NCBI GenBank assembly: GCA_913064775.1
Contig: CAJYAD010000010.1
Coordinates: forward strand, 1 to 64,000
DNA: 64,000 nucleotides
From: an uncultured Albidovulum sp.
GTDB lineage: Bacteria > Pseudomonadota > Alphaproteobacteria > Rhodobacterales > Rhodobacteraceae
Direction: 5' to 3'
In this document: piece after piece, positions 7,563 to 47,334 of the stretch
Position numbering within the stretch: the first letter of the stretch is position 1
How the letters are laid out: the number at the start of each line of letters is the position of its first letter
Translations under genes and position numbers: made by a program
Notes under the pieces: model-generated
The model's input: the letters and a program-made list of their open reading frames with translations, nothing else
The model's database searches: none
What the model was told of the DNA's origin: nothing

Positions 7563-7834
7563 CAGCCGATGACCTTCTTCCAGGCGTCGATGCTGACGCT
7601 CTCGAACAGGCCGGCCTTGGCATAGGGGTCGCCCGCGGCCCAGACCTTGGCGTCTTGCAGACTGTCGACCTCCAAAATCAGCAGGCTGCCGCACATCCCG
7701 CCCTCGGCATCGATGAAAGGCCCGGCGAGCGAGACGATTCCGGTCTCGCGGACATAGGCCAGATGGGCGTCGCGGTTGGCTTTGCGGATCTCGATGGCGC
7801 CGGGTTTGTCGCGGCAGATCACGGCATAGGGCAT
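7562..7834 (-). CDS. YciI family protein
   Basis: A 90-aa small alpha/beta (dimeric ferredoxin-like) protein with the YciI pattern: RDKPGAIEIRKANRDAHLAYV, a GPFIDAEGGMCGSLLILE core and AGDPYAKAGLFESVSI. The catalytic-type H in the HL motif and the D of AGDPY are kept. YciI proteins are small-molecule-binding or hydrolase-like with few defined substrates. The gap to gpsA is 3 bp and it overlaps the EVE gene by 1 bp, so it sits inside the tsaD operon. Confidence 0.9.
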   Translation of the reverse strand: MPYAVICRDKPGAIEIRKANRDAHLAYVRETGIVSLAGPFIDAEGGMCGSLLILEVDSLQDAKVWAAGDPYAKAGLFESVSIDAWKKVIG

Positions 7835-7837
7835 GGT

Positions 7838-14130: not shown

Positions 14131-14142
14131 AGGTTTGACCCC
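14131..14142 (+). repeat. AGGTTTGACCCC direct repeat, copy 1
   Basis: Same 12-mer as 37661-37672, and one mismatch from 30136-30147. It lies 60 bp upstream of the relic gene start, at the same place relative to the start as copy 2. Confidence 0.5.
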
Positions 14143-14201
14143 ACTTCCGTTTCTTTTGTTGTGGCCAATATATCTGTCTGACACCAATGAAGAGTCGAGC
14201 C

Positions 14202-14640
14202 ATGACCCAAACAATCGGGACCGCTCGAAATGCCTACGAGCGAGGCGAGGGAAAGGGATTTCATCCGGAAATCGCGTTCGCCCAGTTCGATCTCGGGGAT
14301 TGCGCCCTTGGCCTCGAGTGGAGGAACCTTCCCCTCGATGCGATGTCATTCGAAGCACAGTTCCCCGGCCGACCCGAGGAAGATGATCCATCTCATCAGG
14401 CGGCTCGGAGGTCTTCGTCTCTATCAGAGCTGGCGATCAACGATCTTGCGAATGATCTTGGCGCATGGAGGAGGTTCGCAAGAGGACCATTGGTAGGCCT
14501 TCGGCACCTATGGTCGAATAGCAGGTATTAAGACCGGGCTCTCAGATATCCAAAGGCCACTCGAACGAGCATTTGGAACCGAAATTTCTCCACCTGCCAT
14601 TCCGCGCGAGATGGCGCTCGAAGCTGAAAGCCAAGCAACC
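14202..14640 (+). pseudogene. frameshifted, truncated paralogue of the 566-aa gene at 30.2 kb
   Basis: The ATG at 14202 opens AYERGEGKGFHPEIAFAQFDL and LPLDAMSFEAQFPGRP, which aligns with AFERGEGAGLSTIIALAHFDL and LPLDAVAFKDRFPDRP of the gene at 30207. After about residue 60 homology moves to another frame (GGLRLYQSWRSTILRMILAHGG against TGLRMYQNWRSATLRMIFANGG) and later shifts again (LERAFGTEISPPAIPREMALEAE). The match ends near 14640, so about the first quarter of the gene survives. The ~70 bp upstream of the start is also conserved between the two copies. Confidence 0.85.
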
Positions 14641-14647
14641 GGTGCTG

Positions 14648-14673
14648 GACTGCAGGGCGGGCGCCCTGCAGTC
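14648..14673. terminator. hairpin downstream of the amidase gene
   Basis: A perfect 11-bp stem, GACTGCAGGGC / GCCCTGCAGTC, 4-nt loop, 147 bp beyond the amidase stop. There is no T-run. It resembles in sequence the hairpins at 24632 and 32022, which also lie 3' of minus-strand transcription units. Confidence 0.5.
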
Positions 14674-14819
14674 ATTCGATTGTCACACTGTCGCAGCTCC
14701 GCGGCAACCGCGCGCCGCAGGAATCGTCCTGCGGGATTGGGCTTCGCTGCGCGACAGGTTCATACTCAATCCGATCAGCAGGAGGCCCGGACCGGACACC
14801 TGGCGCGCAGGCGGCCAGA

Positions 14820-29505: not shown

Positions 29506-30206
29506 GTGTTCCTCCTGTTACTCTGCAGAATCGCGTGCGCGGCCCCGATATCGGGGCATGCAGTAGGTTCCGCGGAAACTTTCGGCAGTTGGGGATACCA
29601 AGCGGGAGACCCGACTGGGCACGATCAGTTTCCCTCCTCCAAGTGGCGCATCTATTGCACACGCCCTGCTTCAGAAGAATTCACCGTCCTGTGAGAATCA
29701 GGATGTTCCCGCGTACATCCATCACGTTTGCAGGAGACCTGTAGCGACACCGCTGTCCTTCGAGACATCCAATCCGATGAAAAGATCGCTATTCTCGTCC
29801 ATCGCCCGTCCTCCTGGCATGAGAGGGCTTACGCGGCCCCACTGGGGCCACGGTCCCCTCTTCATCGGTGAAACGGCTCTTCCTCATTCGTCTGCTCCTT
29901 CGCGGTTGAACAAACTCTACATTAGACTGAGGGATCTCGCGGGGGGCAGAGCAGTCAGGCAATCTTACGATCGGGCCGACTGACCCTGACCGGTAAGGTC
30001 TCTAGCCTAAACACCACGGGCATTTCCGCGGGTGTGGTGTTGCCTCCTCCGGCCAGACATTCACCCCACGCGGACGTGTTGGACTTGGAAACCTCGCACC
30101 CGGCTCGAGCTTCTTGTCGGCGACGATCTTCCCCGAGGTTTGATCCCACTTCCTTCTCAAACGGTTTGGCCAATATGTGTGCGTGTCACCAACGCAGAGG
30201 CGCACC
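29506..30206. other. non-coding region between the amide cluster and the recombinase module
   Basis: No convincing gene in ~700 bp. It must hold the promoter of the second transporter operon. Small hairpins occur at about 29838-29852 (GGCCCC / GGGGCC) and 30008-30039 (AACACCAC / GTGGTGTT, 16-nt loop). The last ~70 bp, from 30136, resemble the sequence upstream of the relic gene at 14202. Confidence 0.6.
30136..30147 (+). repeat. AGGTTTGATCCC direct repeat, copy 2
   Basis: One mismatch from AGGTTTGACCCC at 14131 and 37661. With the copy at 37661 it brackets the whole recombinase module in direct orientation. Confidence 0.5.
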
Positions 30207-31907
30207 ATGCAAAGCACTATCCGAACCATTCGCGAAGCCTTTGAGCGAGGTGAGGGCGCGGGCCTTTCGACGATAATCGCCCTCGCGCATTTCGATCTTG
30301 CCGAGCAGGCGCTGGGGCGAGCCTGGGAGGCGCTGCCCCTCGATGCTGTCGCGTTCAAGGATCGCTTTCCGGATCGGCCCCGGCAAGGTGATCCCCTCAT
30401 CAACAAGTTCACCGGGTTGCGGATGTATCAGAACTGGCGTTCGGCAACTCTGCGCATGATCTTCGCAAACGGAGGCGCCCCCACAGAAGACCACATCGAA
30501 TCACTCAAGGCCTACGGGCGGATTGCAGGTCTCAAATCGGCTCTATCCGATCTTCGCGCGCCTCTCGAACGTGCGTTCGGAAATGAAACACCTCCGGCCG
30601 CAATTACCAGCAAACTGGCCGTCGAAGCCGACAGGCAGCTATCGGGCATCGACCGCCAGCGTCTGCGACGTGCGCTCAAATGCCTCGACGATCTGCGGAA
30701 ATTGCCAGAGGTGGTCGAAAGCGGATTGCTTGGCCCCGAGCCGATCGGCCCCATGCCTCGGTATCGTTCATCCGGACAGCGAGAGGTGCCACTGCCGCCA
30801 CTGCTTGGGAGCTTTTGCAAAGGTGTGTCCATCGGAATGGCCTCCGCGATCAAGCTTGTCTTCGAGATCGGTGTGGATGCCGGCGTCCTTCAAGAGAGCG
30901 AGGACATTTCACCGGGTCACCTTGTCGATCCGGCCACATTCAACGCGCTGCAAACTGAAGTGCATGCACGACACAAGCCCAGGACCGCAGAGCAATATCT
31001 CAAAATTGTGAGCTGTGCCCTGTTGGGGACATCCGTGAGCGAGGCTGACCTGGATGGTTGGTCTAAACTGCGGTGCGAAGCACGGGTGCTTGCTCCAGAG
31101 GTCGACCTCAATCCGCAGAGCACCTTGAAGTCAGCCTGCGGGGGCCGAGAGCCTTGGGAACTTGATCAGGCATGGTTCGACGACGCCTCGAACGGTGCCG
31201 AGACAAAGCGCCAACGCTCCGCGCTAAGATCAGGCATCCGTGTGCTGGAGAAACTGCGAGATGCCGGCCACGAGAACCTCCTGAAGTTCCTTCCCCCTGA
31301 GCCGATCCAGCTCGTGGCCCTTCGCCCGGAGAATCTCGAATACCCGTCGTATCTCACCGGGGCACTCCGCGCGTGGCGGGGCCTGGAAGCCCCGAGCGCG
31401 GCCGTGGACAAGAACACCCGAAACGCCCTGCGCTTCTTGTGGAGAAACACCCGGGCTGATGGTCTTGAGGAACTCATCGAACCAGAGAACATCGACAAGA
31501 TCTTCTCGAACGCGTCCGATTTGACGGCGGTCGTCCTCAAGCAGTATCGCGTTGCGGCGCACCGCTTCAGGGAAGTCATGTTTCGCGAACCGCCGTATGA
31601 ATGGGACAAGCTCGTCGCCCACGCGCGAAGCCAGAGGTTTTCAAAGGAAGACATCCATAGCTTGGGCGCGCTTCGCAGCCATGCGCTGTCTGGACCGCGG
31701 CAGCTCGCACCTCACATGATTGATCGAGACTGGGTGGACGCACTTCGAGACGGAATTACCGCGCGCTCGTCGACCCAGCGCCTGCGCCGGGGAGTCAGTG
31801 CATATGATGTCTTGCGCACTGACCCCGACCTGAAAATCCGGTTGTCAGTCGAACCCTTGGGGCCCCTGGCCGATCGCCGCCGGCTATCATCTTCCCGTCG
31901 GTCTTGA
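30207..31907 (+). CDS. unrecognised 566-aa protein of the recombinase module
   Basis: I do not recognise this family. The ATG at 30207 (weak AGAGG before it) opens a soluble, mostly helical, charged protein without signal peptide or membrane spans. The N-terminal ~130 residues (ERGEGAGL, LPLDAVAF, LRMYQNWRSATLRMIFANGG) are the part conserved in the relic at 14202. I see no HxxR...Y recombinase motif, no Walker motif and no nuclease motif. It converges on the minus-strand operon and shares about 110 bp of upstream sequence with its relic. The style of sequence resembles the large recombinase-like neighbours, so a role in the same mobile unit is the best inference. Confidence 0.8.
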   Translation: MQSTIRTIREAFERGEGAGLSTIIALAHFDLAEQALGRAWEALPLDAVAFKDRFPDRPRQGDPLINKFTGLRMYQNWRSATLRMIFANGGAPTEDHIESLKAYGRIAGLKSALSDLRAPLERAFGNETPPAAITSKLAVEADRQLSGIDRQRLRRALKCLDDLRKLPEVVESGLLGPEPIGPMPRYRSSGQREVPLPPLLGSFCKGVSIGMASAIKLVFEIGVDAGVLQESEDISPGHLVDPATFNALQTEVHARHKPRTAEQYLKIVSCALLGTSVSEADLDGWSKLRCEARVLAPEVDLNPQSTLKSACGGREPWELDQAWFDDASNGAETKRQRSALRSGIRVLEKLRDAGHENLLKFLPPEPIQLVALRPENLEYPSYLTGALRAWRGLEAPSAAVDKNTRNALRFLWRNTRADGLEELIEPENIDKIFSNASDLTAVVLKQYRVAAHRFREVMFREPPYEWDKLVAHARSQRFSKEDIHSLGALRSHALSGPRQLAPHMIDRDWVDALRDGITARSSTQRLRRGVSAYDVLRTDPDLKIRLSVEPLGPLADRRRLSSSRRS

Positions 31908-32017
31908 GCGATATGACACGGTGATACGATGGCGGAAATCCTGTGGGGGATCACCTGTCGTCGCGCACAATGAACATCAGCGACACGTCGTCGTCTGTGC
32001 AATCCATGGCCGAATCC

Positions 32018-32100
32018 GCGGAATGACGGCAGGGCGGGCGGGCTGCCCTGCCGTCGTTTGAACGTCAGGCGCTGGCGAGGAAACGCCGCGCCGCCAGACG
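32018..32100. repeat. ~83-bp imperfect repeat (partner 24628-24709)
   Basis: Both copies contain the hairpin plus the last ~12 codons (LAARRFLASA and stop) of a minus-strand gene. They differ at only a few positions outside the hairpin loop. Confidence 0.8.
32022..32058. terminator. terminator-like hairpin after the small-gene pair
   Basis: AATGACGGCAGGGC / GCCCTGCCGTCGTT, 14-bp stem with one G-T, 9-nt loop, beginning 7 bp beyond the stop at 32065. Near copy of the hairpin at 24632. Confidence 0.65.
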
Positions 32101-32484
32101 AGCGCGGACCGCGTCGCGGAAGTTCCTAAGCGCCCGCCATTCCTCGAACAGCCAGCGCAGCGCGTCGACGCGGCTGTCGAAGATGACATCGTCATAGGTT
32201 TCGTGCCGCGGCGTCTGGCGAATGCGATCACCGTAGCCAGGCCAGAGCGTGTTCAGCGCGTCCACCAGAACCTGCTCCATCTGCGCGATGCGAATGTCAT
32301 CGCGTTCATCGAAGGCCTCACCACGCCGAAGCCGAGCGAGGGTCGCGTTGAAGGACGTGCCGTAACTGGCGGGAAACGCCAAGTCAGCGTCGTCGAAGGC
32401 ACGGGCGAAGCTGGCCGCCTGGCGAATGGCCTGCGCGGCCAGCTCCTCGAGGGCCTCTTCACGGCGAAGTTGCGATTGTTCCAT
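32065..32484 (-). CDS. unrecognised 139-aa protein (small-gene pair, second)
   Basis: The ATG at 32484 has an excellent AAGGAGG. The protein is helical, acidic at the start (MEQSQLRREEALEELAAQA) and very basic at the end (RARLAARRFLASA), with no known motif seen. It starts 10 bp after the stop of the 122-aa gene, so the two are co-translated and probably act together. The 3' end and terminator recur at 24.6 kb. A toxin-antitoxin or small accessory pair is possible, but nothing in the sequence proves it. Confidence 0.75.
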   Translation of the reverse strand: MEQSQLRREEALEELAAQAIRQAASFARAFDDADLAFPASYGTSFNATLARLRRGEAFDERDDIRIAQMEQVLVDALNTLWPGYGDRIRQTPRHETYDDVIFDSRVDALRWLFEEWRALRNFRDAVRARLAARRFLASA

Positions 32485-32494
32485 GAGATCCTCC

Positions 32495-32863
32495 TTAGGC
32501 CGCGTGCCGAATTTCGACGGGAACGTTGCTGCCCGCTTCGAGCGAGGCAAGGAGATTGCCAAGCTGGTCCGTCAGCATGCAGATCGACCACACCACCGGA
32601 TCGTCCGGCCCGATCTCCGCGAAGAAGCCGGATTCCTCACGGTCCGGGTCATGAACGTGCTCAAGTGAAAGCAGGGCGAAGAGCCGGCGCAACTCGCGCT
32701 TGTGCCCGGCCTCGAACCCCTTCGAGGCGCGGAGCATCCTGCGCAAACTCTGAAAGCGCCGGAGCGCGGCAGCGCCCCCGAGCAGCAGGGTCGCATTCTG
32801 AAGGTCGAGGTCGTTGGCCTCGACGAAAGCCCTCGTCTCGGAGAGCATCTGTTTCCGGGTCAT
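32495..32863 (-). CDS. unrecognised 122-aa protein (small-gene pair, first)
   Basis: The ATG at 32863 has GGGAG nine bases upstream. Predicted helical: MTRKQMLSETRAFVEANDLD, then a basic stretch RRFQSLRRMLRASKG, then SLEHVHDPDREESGFFAEIGPDDPVVWSICMLTDQLG. I do not recognise it. It lies in the same direction as, and 224 bp downstream of, the second recombinase-like gene, separated by a 25-bp perfect inverted repeat. Confidence 0.75.
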   Translation of the reverse strand: MTRKQMLSETRAFVEANDLDLQNATLLLGGAAALRRFQSLRRMLRASKGFEAGHKRELRRLFALLSLEHVHDPDREESGFFAEIGPDDPVVWSICMLTDQLGNLLASLEAGSNVPVEIRHAA

Positions 32864-32969
32864 GCTGGAAACTCCCTTGTAGCGCCGCCCCCAATTAGGT
32901 CGGCCAAGAACACGGGCGGGGGGACCTCCTTTCGTCCCGTGCTGTTCAATGCTCCCTTTCGGGCAGCAG

Positions 32970-33029
32970 GTCCTTGTCTCTGTCTGTCTTTCTGCTCACC
33001 CGGAGGCAGAAAGACAGACAGAGACAAGG
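32970..33029. repeat. perfect 25-bp inverted repeat with 10-nt loop
   Basis: Arms 32970-32994 and 33005-33029 are exact reverse complements; the arm contains TTGTCTCTGTCTGTCTTT. It lies between the second recombinase gene and the small-gene pair. There is no T-run, so it is not an ordinary terminator. Confidence 0.9.
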
Positions 33030-33087
33030 ACGGCGTTCTTCAAGACCTTTGGGTGGGTCGTGGCGCTACCGCCGAGCCTCAGCCGCC

Positions 33088-34476
33088 TCAGAGCAGGGAA
33101 GCGAGTTCGTCGGCGAGATCGTCCTGGGCCATGCTCGCGCGAGTTTGCTGAAGAGACAGGCCCTGGTAGTGTCGGGCGGTGGATTCCGAGATCTGGTTGC
33201 AGAGCGCCATCGCCTTTGCGGTTCCTGCGTCGCCCTGAGCGCCGAAATGCTCATGCATCATCGTCCGGGTGACGGTCGCTCCGGTCCCGAGTATATCCGA
33301 CCAGACCCGCGAGACGTAGCTCTTGGCACACGCGGCACCGTTCGGGTTCACGAAGAGCGTGCGATTTGAGGCCTCGACGTGCCGGCGCAGCTCGTCGAGA
33401 TATTTCGGATCGTTGTCTTGAAGCACCAGAGCGTCGATGAACGGCGTCATGCTCGGATGGAATGACGCCGGGAAGTCTTGGCGCCCGCTCTGATGCGCGG
33501 TCTTCTGCGGGCGGAAATTGCGGAGCCGGTAGCGTTCACTGGACCAGAACAGCGTCTTGCCGAAGACCAGCCGGTCCCATTCTCGGCGAAGCGGCAGACC
33601 CGCGGGCAGCCCGAGCGCAGCGGCCCGGTTGCGCTGGATGTGACGGTCAAGCGTGCTTTTCAGCTCAACGCTGGACGCGAGCATATCGAGGGCGGTGCGC
33701 ATGACGTCCAGTGGGCTGCCAATCCCGTGAAGTTTGCCGAACTTCAGCTGTGAGGATTGCGCCTCATCTTCATGGAGCATCTCGAGCGTCTGTTTCAACT
33801 CTTCAAGCAGCTCGGGCGGATAGGTCTCCCGCAACCGGGCAAAGCGTTCCAGTTCCTCCCAAGTTGCCCGAAGTGTGGCCGGCCGGAGCGGCTCGCCAGA
33901 GCGCGAACTGACGCGCCCGGTCAGTTGCGAATAGAATTCCGTGAGGCCCTCTTGGTGCAGCTCTTCATCCATGCCCGCGAGCCGCATGGCGAAGATGTAT
34001 TCTCCGAGTTTCCGAGTCATCCGCTCCAGTATGCTCGGGGCCGGGGCGGAGCCGAGACCCGTCTTCTTGCGCCTGGCGAGGTCCCCGAGAAAAGCTTGCC
34101 AGTCACGCGGCAGTTCCTCGCGAGGCACCGAGACCGTGCGCAGATAGACGGCCCTCCCCTTGCTGCTCGTCCTCCGGCTGGTTTCCTTGCGGAGGGCGTC
34201 ATGGTGCAGCCGCGCAATGACGCTGATCCCTTCGTTCGTCGGATCAAGCAGCTCAAGGGCCGCACGGAGGTGCTGCAGGTCAGCCGCTCCTTGGCCGAGG
34301 TCGGCCCAGGCACGAAAATCCTCCTCGACGACCCTGCTCAGACCATGCCTGATCTGGTGGTCGAAGAAGCTGTCCAGCGCACGAATAGCGGGCAGGGAAA
34401 GCTTGGAAATCCCGGACTCCTTCGAGAGATCACGCCAGGCCGGTTTCGCGAGAATGCGGAGAAATTCGCCGTTCAT
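33088..34476 (-). CDS. tyrosine-recombinase-like protein with atypical active site
   Basis: A 462-aa protein whose ATG overlaps the stop of the upstream recombinase gene (ATGA), so both are made together. The C-terminal part resembles the end of a tyrosine recombinase: TRTMMHEHFG (R404, H408, H410), then ARHYQG with a candidate tyrosine at 437. However, the normal HxxR order and the LGH box are not visible, and I see no clear first arginine. It may be a degenerate, structural or partner subunit. The N-terminal two thirds are helical and unrecognised. A longer upstream frame is only the shadow of the neighbour. Confidence 0.75.
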   Translation of the reverse strand: MNGEFLRILAKPAWRDLSKESGISKLSLPAIRALDSFFDHQIRHGLSRVVEEDFRAWADLGQGAADLQHLRAALELLDPTNEGISVIARLHHDALRKETSRRTSSKGRAVYLRTVSVPREELPRDWQAFLGDLARRKKTGLGSAPAPSILERMTRKLGEYIFAMRLAGMDEELHQEGLTEFYSQLTGRVSSRSGEPLRPATLRATWEELERFARLRETYPPELLEELKQTLEMLHEDEAQSSQLKFGKLHGIGSPLDVMRTALDMLASSVELKSTLDRHIQRNRAAALGLPAGLPLRREWDRLVFGKTLFWSSERYRLRNFRPQKTAHQSGRQDFPASFHPSMTPFIDALVLQDNDPKYLDELRRHVEASNRTLFVNPNGAACAKSYVSRVWSDILGTGATVTRTMMHEHFGAQGDAGTAKAMALCNQISESTARHYQGLSLQQTRASMAQDDLADELASLL

Positions 34477-36347
34477 GCCATCAACTCCGAGAAGAGTTCC
34501 GACTGGGCGTCCTCGATAACGGCCTCCCGGTTGATCCAGGCGTAGTATTTCAGGACGATAGCGGGCGTGTTCCCCAGCAGCGCCGCGATCTTGGGCGCGT
34601 TCTGCAGCGACCGGGCCATCAGGATCGACGCGATCCCGTGGCGCATGTTGTGCGGCGTCATCGGCAGCCCGATAGATTCGCTGACGGGAACCAGCCAGTC
34701 GTAGAACAGCGATTTCGCCATCGGCTTCGCGCTGGTCGGAGACACGAAGAAATGGTGGGACTCGGCCTGCCGCTTCCCGTCCTTCTTGAGGCCGAAACGG
34801 ATGCGATCCAGCGGTTCGTCCTCTTTGCTTTCGCACCACACGGCATTCCCGAAGGGAAAGAGCGGCCGAATCGTCTCGAGATACCAGTCCAGGGTCTGCG
34901 GACCTTCGAACTTGTTCTTCTGGATCTTGATGCGCAGGGCCTCGGTTTGCCTGCCCTTCCTCTCCTTTGCCGGAACGATGGCCAGATAGTGCGTGTCCTT
35001 GTCTGTGGGAAGCAGGAGGTCAGCATTGGGCCCGCGATGCTTGCGTTGCATCGCGTTCGAGACGCGCATCGGGGCGCCGACGATCTCCATCGCCGCAAAG
35101 GCGGCACAGGTGCCGAACCTCCGGATCTTGTTGAGCCTTTCCCCGCAGATAACCTTATCCGTCGCGATAAGATCTTCGGCAATTTCGCGATAGTGCAGGT
35201 GCTGTGTGAGGAACAGCTTGCGCTGCGCAAGATCGTTGACGAGAGGGCGGCAGAACTGAATGGACTTCTCTGACATCTGCTCGCCTGCCTCCTTGCCCTC
35301 CTCGAGGAACGTGGAGTGCTTCATCGCCTTGCCCATATGGGACACGTCGAAACCGTTGCGGCCAGCCACCGTCATACAGTTGCTAACGTAGGTGCGAGCC
35401 GACCGCGCAGTCAGACCATCGGGGGCGTCGGACGTGTCCACCCAATGCGCGAGCACCTTGCCGAAGACCTCCTCGGAGAACATCTCCTCCAGGTTCAGCC
35501 GCGCGTCGAGATCGAAGGCGCCGCTGCGCTGCAGAGACGCCGTCCAAGCGTAGCTGCGAAGCGCAGAGCGATACATGTCGGCGGTGCCATCTTTCACGCG
35601 CGCGGAGTGAGACTGCGTCGTTTCGTTCCAGCTGCCCGGCTTGAGGCGGGCAACTTCTACAAGCTCGTCGATCCACCCGGTGACGCGGTCAGGCAGCGTG
35701 TTCTCAAAACGCCGGCGGACAGCCTCGATGTCCAGTTTCCCCGGGAGGAGCGCCGCCACCGACCGGATGCAGGAGTAGTGATCGAGAACGGCAAGTGCGC
35801 GGAAGACCTTGTCCCGAATGGCGGCCGTCGGGGCCCCTTCCACCAGCCGCTCAATCCCGCCGTCGACGAAACTCGCGGGTTCGACGCCCGTCTCCCGAGC
35901 CCGGTCGGCGAGTGCTTTCACCGCGCCGAATTCAGCGGCATGAACGGGCCCCTTGTTCTTGGCGAGGGTCCCCAGAAGATCGACGAGCGCGGTCCAGCCG
36001 TCCTTTCGCTCGCCACGTTCCCGCTTCGCGTCATAGGCCCCGGTCGCGTGCTGGATCTGGCACCGCACCTTGCGGCGCCAGCGAATGTAGGCGGACCGCG
36101 TGCGCCAGAAACCCCGTTCCCGGCCAGGGACGTGGTGGGGAAGTTTCGCAAGCGGGAAGGTCTTGTCGAACTCCGTCAGGTCCGCGGGCAGCAGCCACAG
36201 CGGCTGGCCGTGGAACTCGCTAAGGCGCTTGACCGCCTTCGCTTCATCGGGCTTTTCGGAATTGGAGGCCAGGTCGAAGACATCCTGCATCGTCATGGCG
36301 GGGGCGGTTTCGGCGCCGGTTTCAAAGTTGCGGTCGAAGATACTCAT
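34473..36347 (-). CDS. large tyrosine recombinase (phage-integrase family)
   Basis: A 624-aa protein, longer than typical integrases (350-450), with a ~400-residue N-terminal extension of helical, basic sequence (RWRRKVRCQIQHAT). The catalytic domain shows the first arginine in GAPMRVSN (near residue 426), HNMRHG (H566, R569, H570), LLGNTP in place of the usual LGH, and tyrosines Y601/Y602 in LKYYAW. So R-HxxR-Y are present and it should be active. Its first ~102 codons are partly duplicated just upstream (36375-36692). It is coupled by a 4-bp overlap to the next recombinase-like gene. Confidence 0.85.
   Translation of the reverse strand: MSIFDRNFETGAETAPAMTMQDVFDLASNSEKPDEAKAVKRLSEFHGQPLWLLPADLTEFDKTFPLAKLPHHVPGRERGFWRTRSAYIRWRRKVRCQIQHATGAYDAKRERGERKDGWTALVDLLGTLAKNKGPVHAAEFGAVKALADRARETGVEPASFVDGGIERLVEGAPTAAIRDKVFRALAVLDHYSCIRSVAALLPGKLDIEAVRRRFENTLPDRVTGWIDELVEVARLKPGSWNETTQSHSARVKDGTADMYRSALRSYAWTASLQRSGAFDLDARLNLEEMFSEEVFGKVLAHWVDTSDAPDGLTARSARTYVSNCMTVAGRNGFDVSHMGKAMKHSTFLEEGKEAGEQMSEKSIQFCRPLVNDLAQRKLFLTQHLHYREIAEDLIATDKVICGERLNKIRRFGTCAAFAAMEIVGAPMRVSNAMQRKHRGPNADLLLPTDKDTHYLAIVPAKERKGRQTEALRIKIQKNKFEGPQTLDWYLETIRPLFPFGNAVWCESKEDEPLDRIRFGLKKDGKRQAESHHFFVSPTSAKPMAKSLFYDWLVPVSESIGLPMTPHNMRHGIASILMARSLQNAPKIAALLGNTPAIVLKYYAWINREAVIEDAQSELFSELMA
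36046..36203. repeat. 158-bp direct repeat, copy inside the recombinase gene
   Basis: Identical by eye to 36391-36548, offset 345 bp. It covers codons ~49-102 of the recombinase. Outside the block the two copies are clearly diverged. Confidence 0.9.
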
Positions 36348-36374
36348 TGGCGTTTTCCTGATTCTGCTCGTAAA

Positions 36375-36692
36375 TTAGTGGGCTGCAGTTGCGTGCTGGA
36401 TCTGGCACCGCACCTTGCGGCGCCAGCGAATGTAGGCGGACCGCGTGCGCCAGAAACCCCGTTCCCGGCCAGGGACGTGGTGGGGAAGTTTCGCAAGCGG
36501 GAAGGTCTTGTCGAACTCCGTCAGGTCCGCGGGCAGCAGCCACAGCGGACGGCCGTGGAAATCGCTCAGGCGTTTAACCGCGTTGGCTTCGTCGGACTTT
36601 CCGATATTGTAGGTCCGCTCGAGGACATCCTGCATCGTCAGGGCGGGCGCGGTTTTGGCGCGGTTTTCGAAGTTCCAGTCGAAGATACTCAT
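36375..36692 (-). pseudogene. truncated duplicate of the large recombinase N-terminus (105 codons)
   Basis: The ATG at 36692 starts MSIFDWNFENRAKTAPALTMQ, parallel to MSIFDRNFETGAETAPAMTMQ of the intact gene at 36347, with the same upstream AGGAAA/GGAAAA context. Codons 1-48 are diverged, codons 49-102 identical, then a stop after HATAAH. It is in frame and could be translated to a 105-aa DNA-binding or dominant-negative fragment. More likely it is the scar of recombination between two related modules. Confidence 0.8.
36391..36548. repeat. 158-bp direct repeat, copy in the truncated gene
   Basis: Partner of 36046-36203; it ends 16 bp before the stop codon of the truncated duplicate. Confidence 0.9.
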
Positions 36693-36732
36693 TGGTGTTT
36701 TCCTTTTCTGCTCGAGAGATAGGTTGGCTGTT

Positions 36733-36874
36733 TTCAGTGCATCGGAAGCGTTGCAGTGCATAAAATGTCGTTCTGCTCCGCTCTTGGCCGAACCGTAAAT
36801 TCGGGACAGAACGACATCTGATTGGTTGCGGTGCGCTGCCGACATTTGCGGTGCAGATGCGTGGACTGGAGTGC
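36733..36874. promoter_or_regulatory. inverted repeat flanked by five iterons: candidate recombination or operator site
   Basis: ATGTCGTTCTG (36765-36775) and CAGAACGACAT (36807-36817) form a perfect 11-bp inverted repeat with a 31-bp spacer. Around it are five same-direction octamers ending GTGC: 36733-36740, 36752-36759, then 36827-36834, 36847-36854 and 36867-36874. The last three are spaced exactly 20 bp, the first two 19 bp. It occupies the gap between the triple-HTH gene and the recombinase genes. Confidence 0.65.
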
Positions 36875-36885
36875 ATTCCCCGTGA

Positions 36886-37596
36886 TCATCGCGCGACCCC
36901 GGCTTCCTGCGCGGCGCGGTGAGCGGCCACAAAAATTCCTTCCGCCGCAGAATCCAAAGGCGCGCGATCGCCCTGGCAGCTCGCCGCATTCGCGTCTGGT
37001 TCGGCATCCTCTTTCGTCGATGTCGCTGCTTTTGCGGCCTTCAGAACAGCGCTCCTAAGGAAGAGCTTCTTGCCGCCGGGCATGATGATATGGGAAGGCA
37101 GCGCCGCGTCCTTCACGTCCCGCAATTGCTCTATTTTCGAATGAAGATGCGGAAACTGTTTGGCAACTTGAGGCAATGTCATCGTGAAGTCGTTGAGCCT
37201 GTCGAGCTGCACGAACGCGCCGCGCGGCGAACGGGCGAAGGCACGGAACTGAGAGGCGATGAAGCGGCGACTCCGGGGCCCGAAGGCGTAAAGCGGAGGA
37301 GCCGAAATTTCTCCCGCTTCGAACTTCTTCTTGAGATCTGGCGCGCGGAGGCCCAGCTCTGCAGCCGCGTGGGCGAGCGTCAGCATCGGCTGTGTCAGGG
37401 CGTCAATCTCGTCCGATGCGGGGGCAACACCGAGGACGCCGGAGAGAAGGCGGTGCCAGGGATATTTTCCGGACGCCGCCATGACGTCGAGATTCTCAAG
37501 GAAGTCGGCCACAACGTTCCGCGACATGCCCAGCCATTTGGCGGCTTGGGACAAGGTCGCAGCACCTGCGGGCGCAAATTCGTTTGGGCTGGGCAT
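36886..37596 (-). CDS. multi-HTH DNA-binding protein of the recombinase module
   Basis: A 236-aa protein with three excisionase/MerR-like helix-turn-helix units: TLSQAAKWLGMSRNVVADFLE (about residues 14-34), TLAHAAAELGLRAPDLKKKFEAGEI (about 72-96) and TLPQVAKQFPHLHSKIEQL (about 143-161). The tail is Ala/Asp-rich. It is first in the minus-strand order HTH - duplicate - recombinase - recombinase-like. It likely binds the iteron site just downstream or acts as a recombination directionality factor. The start at 37596 avoids a frame extension into the CRISPR array. Confidence 0.75.
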   Translation of the reverse strand: MPSPNEFAPAGAATLSQAAKWLGMSRNVVADFLENLDVMAASGKYPWHRLLSGVLGVAPASDEIDALTQPMLTLAHAAAELGLRAPDLKKKFEAGEISAPPLYAFGPRSRRFIASQFRAFARSPRGAFVQLDRLNDFTMTLPQVAKQFPHLHSKIEQLRDVKDAALPSHIIMPGGKKLFLRSAVLKAAKAATSTKEDAEPDANAASCQGDRAPLDSAAEGIFVAAHRAAQEAGVAR

Positions 37597-37601
37597 GTCA
37601 T

Positions 37602-37624
37602 CTCCGTGTCTTTCGGACACGGAG
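37602..37624. promoter_or_regulatory. palindrome at the start of the HTH gene
   Basis: CTCCGTGTC-TTTCG-GACACGGAG, a perfect 9-bp stem ending 5 bp before the ATG. It overlaps the ribosome-binding region, so it may be a translational or autoregulatory operator. Confidence 0.5.
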
Positions 37625-37660
37625 ATGGGCCTAATTGGGCAAATCAGAAAAGGTTTTTGG

Positions 37661-37672
37661 AGGTTTGACCCC
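37661..37672 (+). repeat. AGGTTTGACCCC direct repeat, copy 3
   Basis: Identical to 14131-14142; 65 bp upstream of the HTH gene start and about 50 bp from the degenerate end of the CRISPR array. Confidence 0.5.
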
Positions 37673-37723
37673 CTGATCAACGGCGACACTTTTTCGTGAT
37701 CGACGCCAATGGCGTCGCCGCCT

Positions 37724-39287
<1,564 letters not shown>

Positions 39288-39465
39288 CGCCTCCGTTTAA
39301 CGCATTCAGATCTTGGGACAATAACCCCCGTACGCGCGAACCTGGCCGTGCAGCGCGCACACACTGGAGTTTGCGCACCGGGGGCTGGAATATCCGTCTG
39401 ATTTTTTTGATTTTTTCACAATGCGAAACCCCCGGCACTTTCGTGACCGCTCAGGGTTCGCACAC
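39288..39465 (-). promoter_or_regulatory. CRISPR leader
   Basis: 178 bp between the cas2 stop and the first repeat, with an A/T-rich tract (TTTTTTTGATTTTTT on the plus strand, about 39402-39416) unlike the GC-rich surroundings. It should hold the array promoter and the integration anchoring site. Confidence 0.8.
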
Positions 39466-39756
39466 TCAGAAGATCAGCGGGCCGTCGAAATCTGTCGCGG
39501 GTTTCGCCCCCACATGCTCGACCTTAGACCGCCAGTTGGGGCCCAACATGTAAAACCGCAGGCTGTCCTCTGCGGGGTTGATCAGGCCGGTCAGACGGGC
39601 GCGGAGCGCGGTCCAGCGGGCCGGGTCGAGATCGCATTCGAAGACCGAATACTGCACCCGCTGGCCGTAATCCAGACAGGCCGCCGCGATGCGCCGCAAC
39701 CGTTTGCGGCCGGCCGGGCTGCCGGTGCGCACGTCGTAGGTGATCAGCACCAGCAT
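39466..39756 (-). CDS. cas2: CRISPR-associated Cas2 (subtype I-C)
   Basis: A 96-aa Cas2 with the N-terminal [11 protein letters not shown] (metal-binding aspartate), [24 protein letters not shown] and the I-C-type C-terminus. It pairs with Cas1 to integrate new spacers. It lies 2 bp after the cas1 stop and directly before the leader. Confidence 0.97.
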
Positions 39757-39758
39757 GG

Positions 39759-40793
39759 TTACCTCCAGATCCAGGCAGGGTAGCCGTCAAGTTCGCCGCG
39801 CAGGTGCCGGGCGAGTAGTTGCGCTTGCATCTGGGGAAACAGGCCGAAGAACGCGACTTCATCGAAGAAGGCATGGCGCAGGGTTTCGCGCTTGCGCTCC
39901 TGCCAGGCCTTGAGGACCGTCTCTCGGCCGCTGTCGGACAGCAGGACCGCCCCGGTTTCCTCTGCCCGGAAATCACGGTCGGCCAGTTGACGTCGGTTGA
40001 ACAGGCTGAGGCAGAGGCGATCGGCCATCGGGGCGCGGAATTCTTCCATCAGGTCAAGGGCAAGGCTCATCCGACCTGGGCGGTCTCGGTGCAGGAAGCC
40101 CATCTGCGGGTCGAGGCCATGGGTCTCGCAGGCGGCGCGGCAATCCTGCGCGAGAAGGACGTAGAGGAGTGACAGAACGGCATTCACCGGATCTCGCGGC
40201 GGGCGGCGGTTGCGCCCGGAAAAACCGAAATCCGGGTTGCGCAGAAGGTGGGGGAAGGCCGCAAAATAGGCATTGGCAGCCTCGCCCTCCTGGCCGCGTA
40301 GGTAGTCGAGATCGGGTGCGGACAGTGCTAGTCGGGCCGCATCGGAAAGGCGCCGCTCGGCCAGGTCCAAGCAATCCCGCGGCGCGGTGGCCATCGCGCC
40401 GCCGTGGTCACGCAAGGCGCGGCGGATCACCCCACGCTGGTTCGCGGTCTTGGCCGCAACAATACTCTGGGCAATGCCCAGCGCGAGATCGGCATCCTCG
40501 GTGCGCCTGTGCTGGGCGCGGCGCAACAGCACATTGCCAGATTGCGGCCCCTCAACACGGGCAAGGAACCGGCCTGTCGTGGAGAGGAAAGCTATGGAAA
40601 TGCCCGCTTCGGCGCAGAAGGACATCAGCGGTGGGCTGATCTCGGCCCCTGCGAAGCAGACCACCTGGCCGAGCAGATGCGCTGGCGCACGGCCCCGGTC
40701 CACGCCGTCGATCTCCACCACGACATTTTGGCCGTCCTTGCGGAGCCGGGCCCCTTCGGAGGTAACGTAGAGCGTGTTGAGTAGCCGTTTCAT
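39759..40793 (-). CDS. cas1: CRISPR-associated Cas1 (subtype I-C)
   Basis: A 344-aa integrase of the adaptation complex. Features: [29 protein letters not shown], catalytic-type positions in [11 protein letters not shown]...[35 protein letters not shown]. Its ATG overlaps the cas4 stop (ATGA). Confidence 0.97.
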
Positions 40794-41429
40794 TCGGGGT
40801 CTCCCGGCACGTTGGCGGCGCTGACCGCACGCTCCAACCAGGACCGCACCGGTGGCGGCGCCTGCATCCGTTCCGGTCGGCACAGGTCGTGCAAAGAGCA
40901 GGCGCCGCATCGTCGCGGATCGTGGACCGGCGCGGGCACCCGACCGGCGATCAGCGCGTCGCGGGCTTCCGTTGCGATGGACGTTGTCAAAGAGCGAAGT
41001 TCGGCGTCGAATGCGACGGGTTTGCGGCGCCGGATTTCTCCATAGAACAAAGCCCCTTCTGGGATCGCTCGACCGGTCATCTCCTCCAGGCAAAGAGCCT
41101 GAGCACAGAGTTGCACTTCGTCGGCGCGATGTGGCTTCGGGCGACCGCGCTTGTATTCTACGGGGCAGATCGCGCCGCCCTCAAGCTCAACCGTGTCAGC
41201 GACGCCGTGCAGGCCGAGTTTCCGCGACCCGAGCTCCACCGCCCGCAGGGTGCGCAGGCCCTTGCGCCGATCGCCCACACCGCCATCGACGCGGGCGTGC
41301 AGCACACGCCCCTCTGCGGTCAACCGGTTCTCGGCCCAGAGACGCTCGACATGGATCAGCGCGCATTGGCGAGGGCAGAACAGCCAATGTTGCAATGCCG
41401 AGATCGGCAGGCTTTCCGGTGCGTCGCAT

Positions 41430-41446
<17 letters not shown>
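40790..41446 (-). CDS. cas4: CRISPR-associated Cas4 nuclease (subtype I-C)
   Basis: About 218 aa. Cas4 trims prespacers and selects the PAM together with Cas1-Cas2. The four iron-sulfur cysteines are visible: one in FCPRQC near the N-terminus and [10 protein letters not shown] near the C-terminus. RecB-type nuclease residues are in [11 protein letters not shown]. The start is uncertain. A TTG at 41446 gives 14 residues before ISALQHWLF, the usual family spacing; an ATG at 41476 would overlap cas7 by 47 bp. Confidence 0.93.
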
Positions 41447-42328
<882 letters not shown>

Positions 42329-42332
<4 letters not shown>

Positions 42333-44137
42333 TGGCTGTCCTCTTCTTCGACGGCGATCTCCAACACCTCTTTCGGTGCGGTCTTCGCGAACTTTTGGTG
42401 GTAGTAGCCGGCAACGAAGCGGCCCTGATCCTCGAGTGTCAGGCTGCCTGGCAGATCAGGGGCGAGCCCGGACCAGACCTCACCGATCTGGCTGTCGAGC
42501 CAATGGGCCAGGCCGCCCTTGTCCGTCTTGCGCAGGCTCGCGAGGTGATGGGTCGCGGTCTTCACCAGCAGCGGGAAGACGCGGGCGGGGGTAGAAGAGG
42601 CGGAGGCGAAATACCGGTCGCGGATCGTGGCGTTGAGACCTGGAAGGGCGCTGCGCTGGATACTCTCGAGCAGCGCGAAGAGTCGGCCGAGCCGGTAGGC
42701 CGGGCTGGTATTCTCTGGATCGAGGCTCACGGGAAACTCCTCCTTCTGATTGCGGCAGAGCACCGCTTTACAGATCGCGGCCCGGGGGCCGTTGACGATG
42801 CCATCGGCGCGAATGCGAGTGATCACGGCAGCCAGCAGCAGGCGCGGATAGGGCTGGCCGGTCAGCACGGCGCGCATCAGGCTGCCGCCGAGCAGGGGCG
42901 GAATGTTCTTGGCGTCGCGTTGCTGCGCGGTCTCGTAGAGCAATGCCCAGACCGACGGCGGGCGCGCCCATGCGGTGGGCTCGATCCGCAGATCCTGATG
43001 GAAGCGGGCGACGTTGCGGGTGAACTCCCCCAGTCGGCCCGGCAGCCAGAACCGCACCGACAGCCGCGCGGCATTGGGCGAGAGGCCGAGGATGTAGACT
43101 CGGGTCTCTGGGGCGAAGCGTGGGTCTGCGGGGGCCTGGCCGCGCGCCAGCGCCTCCATCGCGATGCGAATCCTATCCTCGGCCTCTCCGGGAGTCTCCT
43201 GCGTTTCGGTGGATGGGGGTGCAAGCAGGGCGGCGAGGAGATCCTCCACCGTCTCGTCGCCTTCCCGCGCCTCGGTCTCCGCCCAAAACACCACGGTCGC
43301 ATCGCCGACGCGCAGGGCGCGCCGCCCCGGCCCGGCGCCGGAGCGCGACAGCAGCGCGTTCAACGCCGTGCCATAAGCGAAGGTTGCTGCCTCGGACACG
43401 GGCGCATTGTCACCCTGGCGCTTGCCGAAGGATTCATAGGCCGTGCTGTTGAAGGAGACGAGTGATGCACCCGAGCTCTGCGCCCCTGAGACCCCCTTGA
43501 TCGAGGGGTGCAGCCGCGCCACCGGCCCGCGCTCGCCGGTCACGAGACAGAGCGGCCCGTCGCCTCCCGCCTCGCCCGCGATCAAGGCTGCGGCGGCGGG
43601 GCGGTCGTGCAGGTAACCCACCTCGCCCTCAAGCCGGAAGACGACGTTCTGGTCGAGCACCTCGGTGGAAAAGCCTCGCGTGGCGAAGTCCTCCCACGAC
43701 CAGCCATCGAGGAACCGCAACAGGGCGTGAAGGCCGGGATCGTCGCTTTCCGCTAAACGGTCGCGGTGGGCCTTCCTGAATGCGGCGTGTTCGTCGGCCG
43801 TGCGCCGCTCCTGAGCCGGAATTGGCCGGCCGGCCACCAGCTTCGGCTTGCCGCGCTCGTCCTTTAGGGCGGTGACGCCCAGCACATAGGCGGTCTTGTC
43901 CCAAAGGAAGTTCGGTGCGATTCCGGAGGAGCGCTTGACGGCCGCGGGCACACCGATCGGTGCCGCCACCATCCTGCGCCTGTCCGGCACGAGCTTCGGG
44001 TTGATCGCGACCAGCCGTCCCGCAGTGTCGATCACCACCTCCGCCCCGATCCGCTCGGTCGAGAAACCTTTGTGCGGCGCCTCGCCCGCCTTCGCCATCC
44101 GATCGTAAAGCGTGGCCAGCGCCGACAGGATCGTCAC
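42329..44137 (-). CDS. cas8c: CRISPR-associated Cas8c (Csd1), Cascade large subunit
   Basis: A 602-aa PAM-recognising large subunit. It starts [12 protein letters not shown] and includes [63 protein letters not shown] and [11 protein letters not shown]-type sequence near residue 475, all characteristic of Csd1. The start is GTG 44137, overlapping the cas5 stop (GTGA). Length is normal. Confidence 0.96.
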
Positions 44138-44802
44138 TGTGCCAAGCCTTCAGATCGGGCGCGGGCGACGTCGATCACGCCGTCCTCCATCTTCGCACGA
44201 AAGAAAAGCGCCTCCTTGCCCGCGCCATAGTCGATGTCATAAAGCATCCAGCCAAGGTCGCGCGTCCGATCTACCTCGGGCAGGGTGCTGTCGGGGAAGT
44301 CGTCCACAAGCGTCACATCCGCCGGAAACTCCCGAACGCCGAGGCATGGCTGGTGGAAATGCTGCCCCTTCGCCGCGCGCCGTCGGGCCATCTCTATATG
44401 TTTGGCCTCGCTGTCCTCCGCGCCAGCTTTGGGTGTCATCTCCAGATGCGCCTCGATCCCATAGACGACATTGCGCAGGGCCATCATCGCGCGCTGCTGG
44501 CGGTCTTCTTCAACCAGCAAGTGGAGCCCGACGGTGGAGCCGGCCTTCATCGCTGATATCACCGTACCTGCGGGGATCTTCGACCCGATCTCGTTGCGGC
44601 GGATGTTCTCGAACCGGATCGGAGCGAGGACGTGGATGCGGTCGATGACCCAGCGGATGGCGGGCTTCCAGTGGATCGCTTCGATCAGGCCGCGCGCAGC
44701 GGAGGGGGTGATCGCGTCGTAGCTGACACGCTCGACCTTCATTTCAGGACGGGTAAAGCAGGCGTAATCGCCACGAACCAACAACTTGATACCGTATGAC
44801 AT
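44134..44802 (-). CDS. cas5c: CRISPR-associated Cas5c, crRNA endonuclease
   Basis: A 222-aa RAMP protein. In I-C systems, which lack Cas6, Cas5c itself cuts the pre-crRNA hairpins. It begins YGIKLLVRGDYACFTRPEMKVERVSYDAITPSAARGLIEAIHWKPAIRW-like sequence, standard for Cas5c, and ends with CLGVREFPADVTLV. No cas6 is present in the locus, as expected. It lies 74 bp downstream of cas3. Confidence 0.96.
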   Translation of the reverse strand: MSYGIKLLVRGDYACFTRPEMKVERVSYDAITPSAARGLIEAIHWKPAIRWVIDRIHVLAPIRFENIRRNEIGSKIPAGTVISAMKAGSTVGLHLLVEEDRQQRAMMALRNVVYGIEAHLEMTPKAGAEDSEAKHIEMARRRAAKGQHFHQPCLGVREFPADVTLVDDFPDSTLPEVDRTRDLGWMLYDIDYGAGKEALFFRAKMEDGVIDVARARSEGLAQ

Positions 44803-44876
44803 GCAGATAACGATCCTAATGCTGCCATAAGCTGCGCCGGATGATGTTCCTCAGTCAAGCATGCTTGGCCCACAGT

Positions 44877-47156
44877 TCACCAGTTCATGAACCCGAGGTC
44901 GCCGAAATCGTCCCAGCGAAGGCCGGTCTGCGGATCGTAAAGGCCGGGCTGGTCGAGGAGCAGGAACTGATCGGCGAAGTCCTTGGGTTTGAAGGGGCGC
45001 AGCAGTCCTGCATCCTGCATCCGACGCTGCACTTTTGCGGGCACCTGCACCTGATAGTTCTGCAAGCCGCGCGCCACGGCACCCGCGCTCTGCACGAAGC
45101 CGAGATCCCGAAGCTCCTCCTCCGGCACCCCCCAGTCGCCGCCGACAATCACCACCGGTCGGCTGCCATCCTCGATGATCCGGAACGCCTCCGCGATCGA
45201 GGCATAGGGAAAGACTGGACGTTGCGGACTGGCCTTTCCGGCCTCTTGGATGGCGCAAAGGATGGCGAAAGGGCGTCGATCCACTTTTCCCGCATCCATC
45301 GCATGGGCTCCGTTCCAGTAGGTGTTGCGGAAATATTCGCGCACCGCATCCAGCGAAAGGGGATCAACTGCGTGTTTCGCAAGGACCACACGGGCGACAT
45401 CGGCCATCTGGCGTAGACCGTCGGGCGGGGCGTATTCTCCCTCAGCGCCGCGTTCCGCCTCGAAGATCACCACTCGACCGAGGTCGGGCAGATTGCCCTC
45501 CCGGTTGCAGCGTCCGGCGGCTTGGGCGATGGAATCGAGCCCGGCGAGGGCGCGGAAGACCACCGGAAAGCTGATATCGACACCTGCCTCGATCAGGCTG
45601 GTGCTGACCAGCCGCACGGGCGCGCCCGCCTTCAGCCGCGCCCGCACCGTATCGAGGACCTGACGGCGGTGGCGCGCGGTCATGTTGGTGGAGAGGTGGA
45701 ACGCCTCCGGCAGCGGGCGGATCAGGTCGAACACGGCACGCGCCTGTTTGCGGTTGTTCAGGATCGCGAGGCCGCCGGCCATTCCCGCCAGCGCCTCTGC
45801 CAATGCCGCATTGTCCAGCGGCCTCACCTGTTCGACACTCACACGCCGCAGCGCATCGTAAAGAGCGACGGGATCGGGGGCGAGCTCCCGCACTGCGAGC
45901 GGTCCCTCGCGATCAAGTCCCTCAGGATGAGGGAAGCCATCCTCGCCACCTTTCAGAAGGGCAGGCTGGGTTGCGGTGCAGAATACGATCGAGGCTCGAT
46001 AGCCCCGCGCCAGTTCTTTCAACGAAGCAAGGCTTGGGCGCAGAAGGCGGATCGGCAGAGTCTGCGCCTCGTCCAGCACGACCACGGCATTGGCGATCCG
46101 GTGCAGTTTGCAGCAGGGAGAGCCGCGCCGCGCGTGAAGGCTTTCGAAGAACTGTACCGCCGTCGTCACAATCACCGGTCGGTCCCAGGTCTCAGTTGCC
46201 TCCTTCAGGGCGGCACGCTCGTCTTCGCCACTCCCCCGCTCGCCCGTCCCCTCCCAGTCGAAGGCGGAATGGTGCTCAAGAACCGCATCGTTGCCAATCG
46301 TTCCGAACACCTCGCGCAGGACCTGCGCCGTCTGCTCCACGATCGAGGTGTAGGGAATGACGAAGATCACCCGCTCCATCCCCTGCGCGATGGCGTGATC
46401 GAGCGCGAAGCCAAGGGATGTCAGGGTCTTGCCGCCCCCTGTGGGCACGGTCAGGCTGAAAAGCCCCGGCGCGGACGTCGCCTGAGCGCGGGCATGAGTG
46501 TGGACGCGGCGTCGCAGGTCGTTGACCGCCCCGCCCCCGCCACGTGCGGCCATGTGGTGGTCCAGCAGGTCGCGCAGTTTCGCCAGGGACGGGGCCGTGG
46601 GTCGGGATACCATCCGGCTCTCCTGCCGGGCATAGAAGGCGGCCGTCTCGCGCCGGTCAGCATCGACGAGGGCTGAGAAGACCATTCTTCCGAGAAACTG
46701 CTGCGCGTAGAAAAGATCCACCGGCCGTCCCTTTGTCAGCGATGCGAGCGGGCCGGGCAGGGTCCGAAGCACGGGGACCCTCCAATCCTCGGGCGGCACG
46801 AGCGCCTCCGCTTGCCTCAGCCTATCTGCAAGAAGCATCCCGTTCCGCGCACCGTCGTCCAGCCCTGCGTGATGGCCCAGGATGACCTGTGCGAGGAGGC
46901 TTCCGAACCCAAGATTGTCAAGCGCATGGCGCGCGCCTTCCGCAGAATGCGGTTCGACAATGCGTGGATCGGACAGGCGCGCCTGAAACCGTTCCTTCAT
47001 CTTGCCAAGATCGTGCAGCCAGCCCGCGATCTCGGCAAGGTCGGGTGCGAAGCCCTGCGCGTTTCGCCGGGCGGCCATTGCAACGGCCTCGGCGTGATCG
47101 CTCAGTGGTTCCCAGTCTGACTTGTCGCTGTTGCAGGTGGAATGGGCGAATTGCAT
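44877..47156 (-). CDS. cas3: CRISPR-associated Cas3 helicase-nuclease
   Basis: A 759-aa effector that unwinds and degrades target DNA recruited by Cascade. The N-terminal HD nuclease shows DHAEAVAMAAR and GWLHDLGKM, and the helicase has Walker A TVPTGGGKT, motif II VVLDEAQTLP and motif VI AAGRCNREG. The start is ATG 47156; the frame extends four codons to a TTG with no better support. It is the first gene of the cas operon, so the promoter lies in 47157-47334. Confidence 0.96.
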   Translation of the reverse strand: MQFAHSTCNSDKSDWEPLSDHAEAVAMAARRNAQGFAPDLAEIAGWLHDLGKMKERFQARLSDPRIVEPHSAEGARHALDNLGFGSLLAQVILGHHAGLDDGARNGMLLADRLRQAEALVPPEDWRVPVLRTLPGPLASLTKGRPVDLFYAQQFLGRMVFSALVDADRRETAAFYARQESRMVSRPTAPSLAKLRDLLDHHMAARGGGGAVNDLRRRVHTHARAQATSAPGLFSLTVPTGGGKTLTSLGFALDHAIAQGMERVIFVIPYTSIVEQTAQVLREVFGTIGNDAVLEHHSAFDWEGTGERGSGEDERAALKEATETWDRPVIVTTAVQFFESLHARRGSPCCKLHRIANAVVVLDEAQTLPIRLLRPSLASLKELARGYRASIVFCTATQPALLKGGEDGFPHPEGLDREGPLAVRELAPDPVALYDALRRVSVEQVRPLDNAALAEALAGMAGGLAILNNRKQARAVFDLIRPLPEAFHLSTNMTARHRRQVLDTVRARLKAGAPVRLVSTSLIEAGVDISFPVVFRALAGLDSIAQAAGRCNREGNLPDLGRVVIFEAERGAEGEYAPPDGLRQMADVARVVLAKHAVDPLSLDAVREYFRNTYWNGAHAMDAGKVDRRPFAILCAIQEAGKASPQRPVFPYASIAEAFRIIEDGSRPVVIVGGDWGVPEEELRDLGFVQSAGAVARGLQNYQVQVPAKVQRRMQDAGLLRPFKPKDFADQFLLLDQPGLYDPQTGLRWDDFGDLGFMNW

Positions 47157-47334
47157 TTGTACAATCAATGAGGGTTTCGAATTGCTGGAAGATTAGCACA
47201 CGCGGACGGAAGTGGTCACGTCACACGGCTCTTCTGGGCGTGATTGTCGTATCGCGATCTGCGAATCAAACCTTCTTCTACTTCTCATGTTCGGGCCGAT
47301 GTCCCCGACCGTTCCAAACAACGGTCGAACGGAA

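Follow-up and report, generated by a model that had tools for sequence, protein, structure and literature searches.

A candidate mobile element with two unlike tyrosine recombinases in Rhodobacterales

Is the gene cluster at positions 30136-37672 of a 64,000-nucleotide stretch of DNA from an uncultured Albidovulum sp. (contig CAJYAD010000010.1; the whole stretch is called the window below) a mobile element in its own right, and do its two tyrosine recombinases act as a pair? The preliminary description of the locus had presented it as an unrecognised multi-recombinase module and considered a nested mobile unit or a role in defence. We propose, with a probability of roughly 0.6, that this cluster is a mobile element belonging to an unnamed family, with a core consisting of a helix-turn-helix (HTH) regulator and two unlike tyrosine recombinases, here termed A and B, encoded in one apparent operon. 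A and B probably move DNA together.

Gene content and recurrence of the HTH-A-B set

The window carries every gene named in the preliminary description. A (624 amino acids, positions 34473-36347) and B (462 amino acids, 33088-34476) are encoded on the minus strand by genes that overlap by 4 bp. On the same strand, 5' of A, lies the gene of a 236-amino-acid HTH protein (36886-37596), a probable regulator or directionality factor with one weak match to HTH_17 (E 5.1e-4), and 3' of B follow w122 (122 amino acids, 32495-32863) and w139 (139 amino acids, 32065-32484), likewise on the minus strand. Protein C (566 amino acids, 30207-31907, plus strand) is convergent with these genes and has no recognised catalytic domain. 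The source is a draft genome of 105 contigs with three copies of B in total: contig C18 holds a second A-B pair, contig C45 a third B truncated by the contig end, and contig C44 an A-like fragment together with HTH-, w122- and w139-like open reading frames (ORFs).

The A-B pairing first emerged from nine seeds, namely the window, the C18 copy and seven plasmids. Loci for comparison came from eight plasmid records, 40 stronger-match regions of a family scan, the C18 copy and 35 named contigs, and the removal of 12 duplicates from the resulting 85 loci (window included) left 73 non-redundant ones; G501:C202, G678:C12 and G516:C13:57254, all above 96 bits, stayed outside the set. Loci were selected by A, and many of them also went into the later profiles. 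B directly follows A in 67 of the 73 loci and an HTH homologue lies 5' of A in 65. By source, B is adjacent to A in 7/8 plasmids, 39/40 scan loci and 19/23 further named contigs. Of the six loci without B, four (L064, L116, L117, L120) are truncated by a contig end, L011 has an insertion sequence after a broken A and L128 is an A fragment. The preliminary description had made its case depend on the co-occurrence of homologues, and the pairing found here does not refute it. It had also counted the two small proteins as part of the module; they are present in the window but are optional neighbours, not core. w122 is found 3' of B in 19 of the 73 loci, w139 in 14 and both in 12, and at least 28 of 101 matches to the w122 family lie within 5 kb of an A-profile match, making w122 a frequent neighbour. 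C occurs within 8 kb in 17 of the 73.

At the genome level, a single-sequence scan of the class was insensitive (2/385 genomes, one match being weak). The A profile matched 73 of 394 genomes at E 1e-3; in 40 genomes the match reached at least 80 bits. C matched 16 of 388 genomes. Fourteen of them belong to the 40 with strong A matches, and in 12 genomes C and A lie on one contig within 20 kb; the hypergeometric p for this genome co-occurrence is 1.5e-13, with neither phylogeny nor the slight difference between the samples taken into account. The B profile matched the window's own genome only in a small sample of 259 genomes from the phylum that also includes Rhodobacteraceae without a match. 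All eight plasmid records with A are Rhodobacterales by their taxonomy lines, as are the 35 named contigs by genus name, and named hosts look confined to this order so far; the named contigs were retrieved with two short peptide patterns taken from close relatives, a scan that is not exhaustive.

The designation as an unrecognised module holds in that the set recurs in different sites and none of seven window proteins had a Pfam or NCBIfam match above the curated cut-offs, the best library match of A being Phage_integrase at E 0.057, below cut-off. PHROGs gave nothing better than E 0.012 for six window proteins. Among the homologues, 38 A proteins matched only Xer- or integrase-type models of NCBIfam (best 3.2e-8) and 36 B proteins only models of this type in NCBIfam and Pfam (best 7.5e-5); at E 0.01, two Pfam models were matched by two B proteins each. 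Since at least 32 of the 36 B proteins thus lack a Pfam match, the module represents a marker of Rhodobacterales mobile DNA that domain searches largely miss. No description of the module was found in the open-access literature, where absence is not proof. A phage origin was rejected because tblastn with A matched none of 50,697 phage records, and viral contigs contained no match of C or of A.

Recombinases A and B, protein C and the HTH gene

A and B are both tyrosine recombinases. In A, the R, K, HxxR and Y of the superfamily are present in order (R428, K464, H566xxR569, Y602), and these five residues are invariant in 48/48 aligned relatives. B combines the ordered residues R297, K325, T401xxR404 and Y437 with a Cre-like fold; R297, K325 and R404 are kept in 46/46 and Y437 in 45/45 aligned relatives. 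The alignments comprise 48 rows, two or three incomplete ones being treated as gaps, and leave out L011 and L064, where A is broken or cut. Three positions N-terminal to R404, 36 of 45 aligned sequences have H, seven including the window have T, one has Q and one has I. In both proteins the box-II arginine and the tyrosine are 33 residues apart (R404-Y437 in B, R569-Y602 in A). The motifs of B had been read as scrambled (R404, H408, Y437) because box II was mis-assigned and the wrong residues were paired; R404 is the box-II arginine, and the position of H408 holds H in 24/46 relatives. That reading falls, and the idea of a degenerate partner is rejected on the catalytic residues and fold of B. 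The invariance of catalytic residues across very divergent A and B proteins argues for selected activity.

The A profile matches XerD in the PDB (E 7.3e-9). A structure model of B from 24 sequences (predicted local distance difference test, pLDDT, 87.2; predicted template modelling score, pTM, 0.74) aligns to Cre with residues 123-456 (Z 15.0, 291 residues, root-mean-square deviation 6.2), and Cre is its best Foldseek match at E 1.5e-3 and probability 1.00, with none below 0.001. The A and B profiles can be aligned to each other by hhalign (probability 97.5-97.8%; E 7.6e-12 and 1.2e-12). Pairwise distances of A and of B were compared over 44 of the 48 loci, leaving out four that are incomplete; they correlate with r 0.978, a value reached by 0 of 2000 permutations.

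Between the HTH gene and A in the window, the first 105 codons of A are repeated in direct orientation as a partial copy that ends in a stop of its own (36375-36692, minus strand) and agrees with A in 82% of residues and in 90.9% of DNA over 328 bp. ORFs with an A N-terminal-like stretch stand in the same place in L058, L059, L060, L062, L063, L098, L102, L103 and L107. Such an ORF may be left over from module exchange or encode a truncated regulator.

Protein C, described at first as a protein of unknown family, is kin to the N-terminal half of A. Together with nine relatives it aligns to A-profile positions ~33-351 (98.7% and 99.0% in hhalign; E 3.5e-16 and 8.2e-18), leaving the catalytic part of A uncovered, and A-like stretches recur within C. 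The model of the window's C is all-helical save single residues and of low confidence (pLDDT 69.7, pTM 0.39); it had no PDB match below E 0.001. We consider C a putative DNA-binding helper. On plasmids, tblastn found no match of C at 1e-5, and profile-level relatives are present on L006 and L011. The layout of C varies, since L006 holds A, B and C in a row. The degraded copy of the C gene previously noted at 14.2 kb is real: positions 14131-14682 (plus strand) hold what is left of a related element, namely a decayed end and a remnant of the C gene, with two pieces that are 52% and 49% identical, one of them with a stop.

A hairpin with a 12-bp stem (37599-37627, minus strand; z -5.11) covers the ribosome-binding site of the window's HTH gene, and hairpins directly before many other HTH genes do likewise. 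When six HTH-upstream stretches were folded, the hairpin appeared in five and not in L111. Stems of at least 8 bp precede 28 of 69 HTH genes, about nine of the 28 being near-identical relatives of L058, compared with 1/67 B genes, 1/86 A genes and 11/316 other ORFs. Stem sequences vary among subgroups with the pairing preserved. Hairpins that limit the translation of transposases are known, and the HTH hairpin resembles them. A DNA palindrome bound by the HTH protein would look the same.

Probable element ends, borders and competing explanations

The 12-mers in direct orientation that had been placed at the ends of the unit were found at 30136 and 37661. A third copy of this 12-mer, AGGTTTGAYCCC, lies at 14131 by the decayed C gene, and similarity between the 14-kb and 30-kb copies begins around it in an alignment judged by eye. 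With one mismatch allowed, the search gave three matches where 0.39 were expected, a number that none of 100 shuffles attained. The C-side repeat AGGTTTGATCCC (30136-30147, plus strand) and the HTH-side repeat AGGTTTGACCCC (37661-37672, plus strand) enclose all six genes and are probable element ends. Possible imperfect inverted repeats were seen just inside the 12-mers, TTTGGCCAAT at 30160-30180 and its candidate counterpart TTTGCCCAAT on the other strand at 37625-37650 (by eye).

Between loci, the borders of the HTH-A-B cassette are sharp. L059, L060, L102 and L103 have a common start at CCGCCCACTC with unrelated DNA before it. Homology of L058, L060 and L062 with L102, L103 and L107 ends within a few tens of bases of the B stop, and L059, L063, L102, L103 and L107 stay alike for kilobases past that stop. 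In L083 and L112, common flanks (93% and 99% identical) enclose different HTH-A-B modules, as if modules had been exchanged in place beside w122-w139. Three different modules (L058, L071, L072) lie beside the same flank, the nnrS region of a nitric-oxide gene cluster; this flank is not used as proof of site-specific insertion because nnrS, which in G431 and G516 is also found at a distance of ~14-29 kb from modules, may be co-carried cargo. A tRNA-Ser(GCT) gene stands directly 5' of the HTH gene in five loci (L113, L115, L116, L117, L120), where a second tRNA fragment was looked for and not found. L107 from Pseudooceanicola pacificus shares 13,598 bp at 99.985% identity with G639, which is equated with L105 from Allosediminivita pacifica.

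Several observations weigh against an element that moves by itself. Matched direct repeats were found in the window alone, ends differ among subgroups, and the two small genes 3' of B are optional. No empty site, circle or transposition was seen among the loci compared; the proposed nested mobile unit remains plausible. In L083, L112, L056, L111 and L054 a phage-type integrase gene lies between a tRNA gene and the module (above the Pfam cut-off in these five and below it in the tRNA-side integrase of L079), and the module may therefore ride as cargo in these tRNA islands, which have an integrase of their own. In the window's B, T replaces the H of HxxR that most relatives keep, and a sequence-based PDB search with the B profile gave nothing convincing (best integrase E 0.1). 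An HTH homologue was not found 5' of A in 8/73 loci, and decay could explain the partial A copy together with several contig-cut loci.

The use of two different recombinases for a single reaction is the pattern of Xer systems. A and B would fit it, XerD is the closest PDB match of the A profile and the module is often on plasmids, some of them small (one carrier has only 14.9 kb). A and B could accordingly form a XerC/XerD-like two-enzyme resolvase that maintains carrier plasmids and islands and has no transposition of its own. We regard this as unlikely given that direct repeats enclose the whole window unit, that an HTH gene and often C accompany A-B, and that some A matches lie on chromosomal contigs of more than 1 Mb (G510, G474, G456).

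It also seems improbable that the module is a passenger or relic, mostly inactive or serving as a recombination hot spot in islands moved by ordinary integrases. The separate integrase of the tRNA islands named above would fit such a passenger, as would that of L110, placed by its 89% identity to L083, and probably that of L079. Module exchange between the common flanks of L083 and L112 and the partial copies of A point the same way. Against it stands the conservation of the catalytic residues, which a mostly inactive passenger would not lead one to expect in A and B proteins that diverge so highly.

How does the module relate to known systems? According to PMC10214605, tyrosine-recombinase transposons fall into five groups, ICE/IME, SE, GInt, RIT and Tn554. 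Tn554 (tnpA, tnpB, tnpC) has, like the module, adjacent unlike tyrosine recombinases, one of them long, and its unlike pair is jointly required according to PMC3414803, which covers BIM, RIT and Tn554 relatives; unlike Tn554, the module has the HTH gene first and C in addition. SE (intA, tfp, intB, srap), strand-biased circularizing integrative elements with a 6-bp footprint (PMC10214605), likewise combine two catalytic recombinases with a recombinase-like protein without catalytic motif, but tfp lies between the recombinases, whereas A and B are adjacent and C is elsewhere. GInt (ginA, ginB, ginC, ginD) resembles the module in its three recombinase-related proteins, its small protein, its direct repeats, which are imperfect and 10-17 nt long, and the cargo beside its operon (PMC5385486). 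In contrast, the window operon has two recombinases, C is convergent and outside it, and C is absent nearby in 56/73 loci. RIT elements (recombinases in trio) share adjacent overlapping recombinase genes with the module, which, in place of three adjacent catalytic recombinases, has two and a C without recognised catalytic domain. Cre and XerC/XerD are linked to it by the Cre fold of B and the XerD match of A; unlike them, A and B have large additional N-terminal regions, and an HTH gene shares their apparent operon. At E 0.01, neither the 38 A proteins nor the 36 B proteins had an NCBIfam match named for the Gamma-Mobile-Trio (GmtX, GmtY, GmtZ), library coverage not having been checked, and passages of PMC13386836, with its recombinase counts on Sulfitobacter plasmids, mention no such A-B pair. 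Judged by gene content, the set appears to share the logic of Tn554, GInt and SE while having genes of its own that seem unmatched to any named family.

Plasmid pNL1 (L092), a convenient reference replicon, carries a trio of integrase genes as well as a Tn554-like pair (2783-8180 and 36237-40050); the trio (463/595/741) is labelled GInt- or SE-like from layout alone. Against its shorter recombinases, the module aligns over the shared catalytic domain only (83.2% over 41 columns and 91.9% over 171 columns in hhalign), and the recombinase-profile comparison gave nothing for the long and third proteins of this single reference set (A: 0.3% and 0.2%). That the module is a divergent member of the Tn554, SE or GInt elements is very improbable: two catalytic recombinases, a non-catalytic relative and a small helical protein follow the same logic (PMC10214605, PMC5385486), yet the pNL1 match is limited to the catalytic domain of two shorter recombinases, the protein without catalysis is not between the recombinases, and in PMC10214605 SE are reported for Gammaproteobacteria only, with no Tfp or Srap homologues reported in Alphaproteobacteria, though a kinship judged on single reference sequences leaves room for a distant one.

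For the mobile element that we favour, we infer the complex, the strand roles, the control of direction and the movement itself as follows. The element ends would offer two unlike half-sites for binding by A and B, and a mixed A/B tetramer would exchange strands, each enzyme serving one strand or half-site. The ends would be joined and re-insertion would occur at a short core like AGGTTTGAYCCC. The HTH protein may bind near the HTH-side end, control the operon and set direction in the manner of an excisionase, the hairpin could curb read-through expression after insertion, and C, if present, would assist as a DNA-binding relative of the A N-terminal half. Tentatively, and with slightly more doubt than belief, we would see in these elements a sixth tyrosine-recombinase transposon group of Rhodobacterales plasmids and islands, characterized by an obligate unlike pair with one half-site or strand for each enzyme, a C helper and hairpin restraint. 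Why two or three recombinases are needed per reaction is an open question for Tn554, RIT, GInt and SE; the fixed A-B pair, the correlated distances and about 70 natural variants make the division of labour directly testable.

Surroundings of the module

The suggested defence role finds no support in the core proteins: six window proteins matched 0 PADLOC families at E 1, and the module was rejected as a defence system. Six of eight hand-picked neighbours match PADLOC models and two do not, a selection that permits no claim of enrichment. A CBASS cyclase, a SAVED effector and a DrmD-like helicase lie near the module in L006, and defence-model neighbours elsewhere are PDC-S19 in L007, SoFic in L012 and a weak PbeA in L009.

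In the window, a clustered regularly interspaced short palindromic repeats (CRISPR) array at 37791-39290 contains 22 repeats with at most 6 mismatches, plus a shorter one seen by eye. The distal end of the array abuts the HTH-side end of the element, and its final repeat is truncated next to the 12-mer. Matches of the spacers to the element were confined to stretches of the array itself. Positions 39466-47168 encode type I-C cas2, cas1, cas4, cas7, cas8c and cas5 together with a cas3-like gene. Further away, a flavin mononucleotide (FMN) riboswitch (RF00050) is located at 6470-6617 with a score of 108.3 bits.

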